Below the pieces are notes generated by a model. That model did not search any database and was not told the origin of the DNA. It saw nothing but the letters and a program-made list of their open reading frames with translations. 62,928 nt of DNA, taken from Bacteroidota bacterium (lineage in GTDB: Bacteria; Bacteroidota; Ignavibacteria; UBA10030; UBA8401). This document shows positions 60,194-61,256 of this stretch, piece by piece (positions within the stretch are counted from its first letter, which is position 1; each line of letters begins with the position of its first letter). The stretch lies in assembly GCA_008933835.1 (NCBI GenBank), contig WBUG01000002.1:1-62928 (forward strand), given 5' to 3'. A program made the translations under genes and the position numbers.

Positions 60194-60763
60194 TGCGTCC
60201 GTAATCCCACAACGGCCTGAGAATGTTCTTCATGAGCAGCTGCCGTTGTGCGGATCCCGAAGTTCTTCATCGGAACTCAATTGGTAATTGCGTCCGTAGT
60301 CCCACAACGGCCTGCGAATGTTGTTCATGAGCAGTTGCCGTTGTGAGGATCCCGATGTTGTTCATCGGGACTCAATCGGTAAATGCGTACGTAGTCCCAC
60401 AACGGCCTGCGAATGTTGTTCATGAGCAGTTGCCGTTGTGAGGATTCCGATGTTGTTCATCGGGACTCAATCGGTAAATGCGTCCGTAGTCCCACAACGG
60501 CCTGCGAATGTTGTTCATGAGCAGTTGCCGTTTTGAGGATCCCGATGTTGTTCATCGGGACTCAATCGGTAAATGCGTCCGTAGTCCCACAACGGCCTGC
60601 GAATGTTGTTCATGAGCAGTTGCCGTTGTGAGGATCCCGATGTTGTCCATCGGGACTCAATCGGTAAATGCGTCCGTAGTCCCACAACGGCCTGCGAATG
60701 TTGTTCATGAGCAGCTGCCGTTGTGAGGATCCCGATGTTGTTCATCGGGACTCAATCGGTAAA
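60194..60763. repeat. Six tandem 95-bp repeats, each starting with the 5' end of a tRNA-Arg
   Basis: Units start at 60194, 60289, 60384, 60479, 60574 and 60669; the exact 95-bp period runs straight into the tRNA gene at 60764. Each unit opens with TGCGTCCGTAG (T plus the first 10 tRNA bases; one base off in unit 3 and in unit 1). Each also has two inverted repeats: CACAACGGC with GCCGTTGTG (for example 60398-60406 and 60432-60440), and TCCCGATG with CATCGGGA. Unit 1 is the most diverged and the rest are nearly identical, implying recent amplification. No protein-coding gene lies in 60015-60764. The stretch 60077-60193 shows nothing recognisable. Confidence 0.93.
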
Positions 60764-60764
60764 T

Positions 60765-60838
60765 GCGTCCGTAGCTCAATCGGATAGAGCATCAGACTTC
60801 GACTCTGAGGGTTGGGGGTTCGAGTCCCTCCGGGCGTA
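60765..60838 (+). tRNA. tRNA-Arg (anticodon TCG)
   Basis: 74 nt. Acceptor GCGTCCG pairs with CGGGCGT (G1-U72 and U4-G69 wobbles), D stem GCTC/GAGC, anticodon stem TCAGA/TCTGA with loop CTTCGAC (anticodon TCG, reading CGA), T arm GGGGG-TTCGAGT-CCCTC, discriminator A. CCA is not encoded (next bases CAA). The gene is flanked on both sides by tandem arrays that share its own ends. Confidence 0.9.
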
Positions 60839-61180
60839 CAAATTCAACAGACCGATGGGTTCCCTGTCCGCCGAAGTCCCGCGGAGTGTGCGGGACGCAG
60901 GCGGAGAGTCCCTCCGGGCGTACAAATTCAACAGACCGATGGGTTCCCTGTCCGCCGAAGTCCCGCGGAGTGTGCGGGACGCAGGCGGAGAGTCCCTCCG
61001 GGCGTACAAATTCAACAGACCGATGGTTTCCCTGTCCGCCGAAGTCCCGCGGAGTGTGCGGGACGCAGGCGGGGAGTCCCTCCGGGCGTACAAATTCAAC
61101 AGACCGATGGGTTCCCCGTCCGCCGAAGTCCCGCGGAGTGTGCGGGACGCAGGTGGAGCGTCCCTCCTGGTGTAAATATT
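60822..61180. repeat. Four tandem 84-bp repeats carrying the 3' end of the tRNA-Arg
   Basis: Units start at 60822 (inside the tRNA), 60906, 60990 and 61074, with a decayed fifth start at about 61158. Each begins with the last 17 nt of the tRNA (GAGTCCCTCCGGGCGTA), then CAAATTC. Each also contains a 7-bp hairpin GTCCCGC/GCGGGAC (60876-60896 in unit 1). The organisation recalls the rtT repeats after E. coli tyrT. 84 is a multiple of three, so all frames stay open, but the unit lacks start signals and is not judged coding. No gene is seen between 60839 and 61256. Confidence 0.92.
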
Positions 61181-61256
61181 CATTCATCGAGCCTGTCGGC
61201 GATTCTTACCATTCACCATTCTCATCTCCCTTCTTCGGGCCTTGGACGGAGTCGCC

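Follow-up and report, generated by a model that had tools for sequence, protein, structure and literature searches.

Several described systems place short repeats or mobile sequences in or beside genes. In the rtT repeats that follow Escherichia coli tyrT, units that open with a copy of the tRNA 3′ end stand in tandem behind the gene. Integrative elements that enter tRNA 3′ ends restore the interrupted gene through a copied gene end, and the palindromic elements of Rickettsia are palindromes read in frame inside coding sequence. To our knowledge, the known members of the IS200/IS605 family have not been described as leaving a restored copy of the gene that they interrupt. These elements insert 3′ of a short motif and leave the target site unduplicated, and their hairpins have unpaired bases (PMC6006769). 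The REP sequences of REP/RAYT (TnpA_REP) systems are short, imperfect, dispersed DNA hairpins for which mobilization by Y1-HUH enzymes is suspected (PMC3733652, PMC3116915, PMC8266576); the Rickettsia palindromic elements are mentioned in one of these papers (PMC3733652). A search of the open-access literature returned work on REP sequences, RAYT enzymes, and Rickettsia palindromic elements but no earlier description of the layout reported here, in which a gene end, a hairpin, and the intact gene follow one another.

In the window (the whole 62,928-nucleotide stretch of DNA that was analyzed), an intact tRNAArg(TCG) gene at 60765..60839 (+ strand; ARAGORN and Rfam RF00005) lies between two tandem arrays that each copy one end of the tRNA. 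This arrangement had been described in a first-pass annotation, and TRF and the sequence agree on it. The upstream array (60194..60774, + strand) has a period of 95, 6.1 copies, and 96% matches (TRF, 60194-60774). Its six 95-bp units start at 60195, 60290, 60385, 60480, 60575, and 60670 and, as first described, run in continuous register into tRNAArg(TCG). Each unit consists of tRNA nucleotides 1-10, a 71-nt insert (element E), a copy of tRNA nucleotides 11-19, and TAAAT or a similar sequence. In the innermost unit, the copy of nucleotides 1-10 (GCGTCCGTAG) occupies 60670..60679 (+ strand), E occupies 60680..60750 (+ strand; identified by its fold and by a match to covariance model R1 at 60676-60752, 99.6 bits), and the copy of nucleotides 11-19 (CTCAATCGG), with the 5-nt spacer TAAAT, fills 60751..60764 (+ strand) before the intact tRNA. 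The other upstream copies of E, each 71 nt, start at 60205, 60300, 60395, 60490, and 60585. GCGTCCGTAG is exact or carries one mismatch in five units, while the outermost unit has GCGTCCGTAA. Since CTCAATCGG, an exact 9-nt match to the tRNA sequence past the insertion point, directly follows the innermost hairpin, the hairpin is an exact insertion between nucleotides 10 and 11 of a tRNA copy.

The downstream array (60822..61182, + strand) has a period of 84, 4.3 copies, and 96% matches (TRF, 60822-61182), with units made up of the last 18 nt of the tRNA, 14 nt of trailer, GATGGGTTC, and a 43-nt hairpin. That these units begin with the tRNA 3′ end held up: the last 18 nt, at 60822-60839 in the gene itself, recur exactly at 60906 (60906..60923, + strand), 60990, and 61074, with a degenerate copy at about 61158. 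The hairpin (CCTG-TCCGCC..GGCGGA; first copy at 60863..60905, - strand; further copies at 60947-60989, 61031-61073, and 61115-61157) differs from E and interrupts the copied tRNA 3′ end within the T-loop, between GGGTTC and GAGTCCC; each unit reads GGGTTC, the 43-nt hairpin, and then GAGTCCCTCCGGGCGTAC. The placement of this hairpin within a T-loop copy, like the copy of nucleotides 11-19 after the upstream hairpin, had been overlooked. Related hairpins are also dispersed elsewhere in the window's genome and in genome G037. The strong hairpins that had been noted in both units were evident when they were folded as single-stranded DNA, with z values of -6.3 for the 95-nt upstream unit, whose 71-nt insert folds into two hairpins, and -2.6 for the downstream unit. 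The long ORFs on both strands at 60723-61183 are mechanical: 84 is divisible by three, which keeps every open frame open from one unit of the 84-bp array to the next.

The proposal that the arrays grew by amplification of their units also stands, with variation among relatives: at orthologous tRNAArg(TCG) loci, some carry the 5′ copy, some the 3′ copy, and many neither. The assembly is fragmented (163 contigs), and the copy numbers taken from it may be off. This fragmentation, and a tRNAGlu array that breaks at a contig end, are what could be said for the arrays being assembly artefacts of a metagenome bin. However, the units carry their own substitutions, the flanks are unique, and the single-unit form recurs in independent assemblies. 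We consider an artefact hardly credible.

We determined how widely E is distributed by searching 391 genomes of the class with R1, scoring up to 12 candidates per genome. E is present in at least 67 of the 391 genomes, and the named matches are Ignavibacteria/Bacteroidota MAGs. After 60 further stretches were retrieved, 130 distinct copies of E had been located in all. DNA searches revealed the same insert before other tRNAArg genes, and in every case the 10 nt that begin the tRNA in question are copied ahead of the insert: before tRNAArg(ACG) in the window's genome (G000, C61), before tRNAArg(TCT) and tRNAArg(ACG) in G018 (C213), and before tRNAArg(TCG) in G019 (C162). Sequences resembling integron attC sites also occur near tRNAArg(TCG) in G019 (L002, 780-960). 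Sixty-two of the 130 copies lie in tRNA fragments, where the sites are nucleotide 10 (20 copies), the anticodon loop, and the T-loop, and 50 lie at the starts of Ser/Thr-kinase genes, at MIGQ.., ..EKLGE/, and ..VVYK/ (the slash marks the junction). The first-pass annotation had treated the arrays as a peculiarity of one tRNA and had named a dispersed repeat family as the finding that would speak against this. As the upstream hairpin belongs to a family dispersed over many tRNA and kinase genes, the tRNA-specific reading is given up.

The layout is constant across these loci. The gene end up to a position p is followed by E, a few nucleotides from after p, a short spacer, and the intact gene, which almost always lies beside E. 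For 73 of the 113 copies that could be tested, the bases immediately preceding E are found again no more than 300 nt beyond its 3′ side, in a repeat whose end mostly coincides exactly with the border of E; the control rate between unrelated loci was about 15% and is itself raised by shared targets. Past E, the target continues for 0-22 nt (usually 0-15) before the spacer and the intact gene. The target runs exactly across E in many loci, revealing precise insertion without target-site duplication at the borders, with seamless junctions in tRNAGly (CAGCTTC/E/CCAAGCT), tRNAVal (CCTTG/E/TAAGGGCGGCGCTC), and tRNAHis (CCTC/E/CAGGGCCACAACCTG). E starts with TYC, ends with GGGA, and follows a W-A-G-like site at positions -3..-1, while the base at -4 is G in 25 copies, C in 18, A in 9, and T in 5. 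The element also has a polarity: it is sense upstream of tRNAs and antisense downstream, with 46 of the 57 copies that have a tRNA in the locus pointing toward the intact tRNA, 8 pointing against it, and 3 overlapping a tRNA. Stacked independent insertions at one gene occur in L126, L118, and L151, where the shorter prefix is outermost and the longer one adjoins the intact gene.

A model that we consider probable is that E is a DNA hairpin that moves, that its insertion goes together with a short tandem duplication by which the gene is spared, and that the arrays in the window are later amplifications. On this model, a tRNA gene present in a single copy was entered by mobile DNA hairpins, and both arrays are the scars. 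E would insert precisely just 3′ of a W-A-G-like site, with no target duplication at its own borders; in tRNAs this would be at nucleotide 10 or in the anticodon or T loop, and in Ser/Thr-kinase genes at fixed sites close to the start. A short tandem duplication would accompany the insertion or rescue the gene soon after, leaving one copy intact and another that E interrupts and that breaks off 0-22 nt beyond the element. Template switching at the stalled hairpin is one conceivable source of this duplication; another is a moving unit that brings the gene end along. Arrays such as the 95-bp and 84-bp ones could have grown later, as duplicated units exchanged unequally or slipped.

The order of events could also be reversed, with ordinary slippage producing tandem duplications of gene ends whose spare copy, as neutral ground, then gathers dispersed REP-like hairpins. 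Any tandem duplication with one end inside a gene yields one intact and one truncated copy, and several unrelated hairpins do occur in such copies. However, 0-22 nt separate the hairpin from the point where the duplication breaks off, which in the case of E is nearly always 3′ of it, and insertion positions recur, as with the 20 copies at tRNA nucleotide 10. The orientation of E correlates with the side of the gene on which it lies, and the same layout is found at kinase genes, a multigene family that should need no rescue. Prior slippage is a distinctly unlikely explanation.

Other sequences also occupy these positions. In the window's genome, self-copies of tRNAMet, tRNAGly(GCC), tRNAPro(GGG), tRNAThr(CGT), tRNAGlu(TTC), and tRNAAla(CGC) are split by hairpins other than E, which also speaks for the mobile-hairpin model; a rank test of the flanks of its 44 tRNAs gave 7 that matched their own tRNA best, compared to about 1.2 by permutation, a weak but positive result. 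In L076, where tRNAHis and tRNAGlu(TTC) both have split self-copies, an ORF for a 23S rRNA intervening-sequence protein (PF05635; 1766-2149) lies between the two tRNAs, and in L082 an ORF for a GIY-YIG nuclease (PF01541; 1269-1523) lies between a split tRNAArg(TCT) copy and the intact gene. Upstream of tRNAPhe(GAA) in L067 is a 96-bp tandem repeat with the hairpin ATCCCGATGAACATCATCGGGAT and no clear tRNA copy. The tRNAArg leaders in L006, L009, L010, L017, and L022 contain a different palindrome, GTAGCTCAATCCC..GGGATTTCGCTAC, which is built from the tRNA 5′ end itself.

We compared the pairing of E with that of a structured RNA. Across 128 distinct sequences, in an alignment that was fitted to the structure and is thus biased toward pairing, 95.8% of stem positions form standard pairs. 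Sliding the pairing lowers this to 30-43%. Of the 20 pairs, 18 show changes on both sides. Excluding two poorly paired helix-end columns (alignment columns 4/103 and 28/77), the stems contain 19 G-T and 12 A-C combinations, while the acceptor stems of 107 tRNAs from the retrieved loci contain 50 G-U and no A-C (Fisher p = 2e-6). This DNA-type covariation speaks for E being maintained as a DNA hairpin and not as RNA, as does the combination of strand-blind pairing with antisense copies downstream of tRNAs. We rejected a structured RNA family, since Rfam matched nothing here except the tRNA itself, the stems of E do not show the G-U tolerance seen in tRNA, and its use is not strand-specific. Insertion at the RNA level followed by retrotransposition, an idea that came from fragments starting at mature tRNA ends, was also rejected, since E occurs antisense and leader sequence beyond the gene end is repeated too, at four loci (L022, L126, L128, and L169); these leader repeats favor tandem duplication of DNA over an RNA-derived copy. 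Given the TRF arrays, the excess of flank recurrence over its control, and the excess of stem pairing over slid pairing, we rejected a chance origin. The suggestion that RNA processing is the point of the arrays is not supported either, as the pairing of E is conserved as DNA in either orientation relative to transcription.

A regulatory role has evidence on both sides. The split copies could be conserved leaders or trailers in which the extra tRNA end and hairpin compete with the real acceptor strand in the precursor, tuning maturation; at kinase genes, a translated upstream ORF would be coupled to the kinase. The split copy at tRNAArg(ACG) is common to G000 and G018, which belong to different genera, and is identical at 80 of 89 positions (90%), while the neighboring upstream ORF is identical at 213 of 357 (60%) and the leader at 47 of 137 (34%). 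Of the stem changes, the two that leave pairing in place are compensatory. The identity of the split copies, together with these changes, also speaks for the mobile-hairpin model. From sequence comparison, this copy may be old and constrained, or the same site may have been hit more than once. Retention of a tRNA fragment while its leader diverges hints at function or at repeated fresh insertion, which simple scars would not have foreseen. At kinase genes, no stop interrupts the truncated ORF within E, and in 32 of 40 cases, not all of them independent, the ORF ends on a TGA that shares bases with the ATG of the intact kinase. The open frame and the overlapping TGA point to selection for continued translation through E. 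In-frame readthrough to an ATGA overlap is seen in L151 (375-1139), L177, L152, and other kinase loci. Despite this, E changes from sense to antisense between the two sides of tRNAs, its stems avoid G-U and exchange bases in strict Watson-Crick fashion, it is absent at the same tRNA in most relatives, and Rfam recognizes only the tRNA. We regard regulation as the main alternative, though an unlikely basis for the split copies, and favor insertion of a mobile DNA hairpin.

In G317, tnpA-bearing IS200-like elements (Pfam Y1_Tnp) lie next to copies of E, with a kinase prefix on one side and the start of the next intact kinase on the other. A related case occurs in G328, and two more kinase-linked cases were found among the 30 Y1 loci scanned. 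IS200-like tnpA genes between truncated and intact Ser/Thr-kinase starts were seen in L235 (600-2330, - strand), L243 (1000-2400, - strand), and L228 (1100-2520); the element in L235 is followed, in the same arrangement, by another copy of itself that carries a deletion. By eye, the elements in L235 and L243 bear other hairpins at their ends, and R1 detected only separate copies of E near three tnpA genes. Y1_Tnp is found in 51 of 55 E-positive and 23 of 39 E-negative genomes of the order (p = 2e-4, kinship ignored), and the capped counts of Y1_Tnp and E have a rank correlation of 0.55, again ignoring kinship. Since Y1 genes are common throughout the class (298 of 391 genomes), this association may be phylogenetic. 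Co-occurrence with Y1 and the layout shared with tnpA elements were the only ties between E and a transposase; no direct tie was found. The single Y1/RAYT-type gene of the window's genome (L094, G000 C82) is flanked by REP-like repeats, GTAGGCCGGGACT..AGTCCCGGC, and by no copies of E; as its repeats differ from E, we rejected the host RAYT as the mobilizer. Identity with integron attC sites was also rejected, as IntI exceeded the cut-off in 7 of 30 E-positive and 10 of 30 E-negative genomes, and G000 had none. The layout, its recurrence and polarity, the exact junctions, and the DNA-type covariation are observations; the mobility of E, its transport by an IS200/IS605-type (Y1, HUH) transposase, and the coupling of the duplication to the insertion are what we infer.

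It is possible, though we put this forward tentatively, that E represents a new class of non-autonomous structured DNA, probably moved by Y1-HUH enzymes and directed at tRNA and kinase genes. Insertion itself would restore the broken gene, through duplication of the gene end 3′ of the element, and would thereby open essential single-copy genes to colonization. If so, a mobile element of less than 100 bp would invade such genes without harm, by a route distinct from the self-splicing of IStrons and from integrases that restore tRNA ends, and odd tandem arrays around tRNA genes would be accounted for. The kinase cases, in which truncated N-termini are read through E into the next start codon, raise the question of translational coupling. 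The succession of gene end, hairpin, and intact gene is a searchable pattern for further cases.

Compared with known systems, E resembles REP sequences in being an imperfect, dispersed DNA hairpin whose Watson-Crick stems are kept by compensatory change. However, E has no conserved GTAG/GGAG or CGTC tag at its foot (the GTAG here is the tRNA's own), is 71 nt long with two hairpins, and lies within duplicated gene ends, and the host RAYT has a different REP. Like IS200/IS605 elements, E lacks a target-site duplication and lies 3′ of a short motif, and tnpA elements share its layout at kinase genes; unlike them, E carries no tnpA, and its mobilizer is a matter of inference. The Rickettsia palindromic elements differ in that the carrier ORF here is a truncated duplicate before an intact gene. 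Integrative elements differ in that here there is no integrase or cargo, the unit is shorter than 100 bp, and 5′ ends and protein genes are also involved. The rtT repeats share with the downstream array the tandem units that begin with the tRNA 3′ end, a trait that the first-pass annotation had rightly recognized, whereas here a hairpin is inserted in the T-loop copy, arrays also lie upstream, and the arrangement recurs at many genes.
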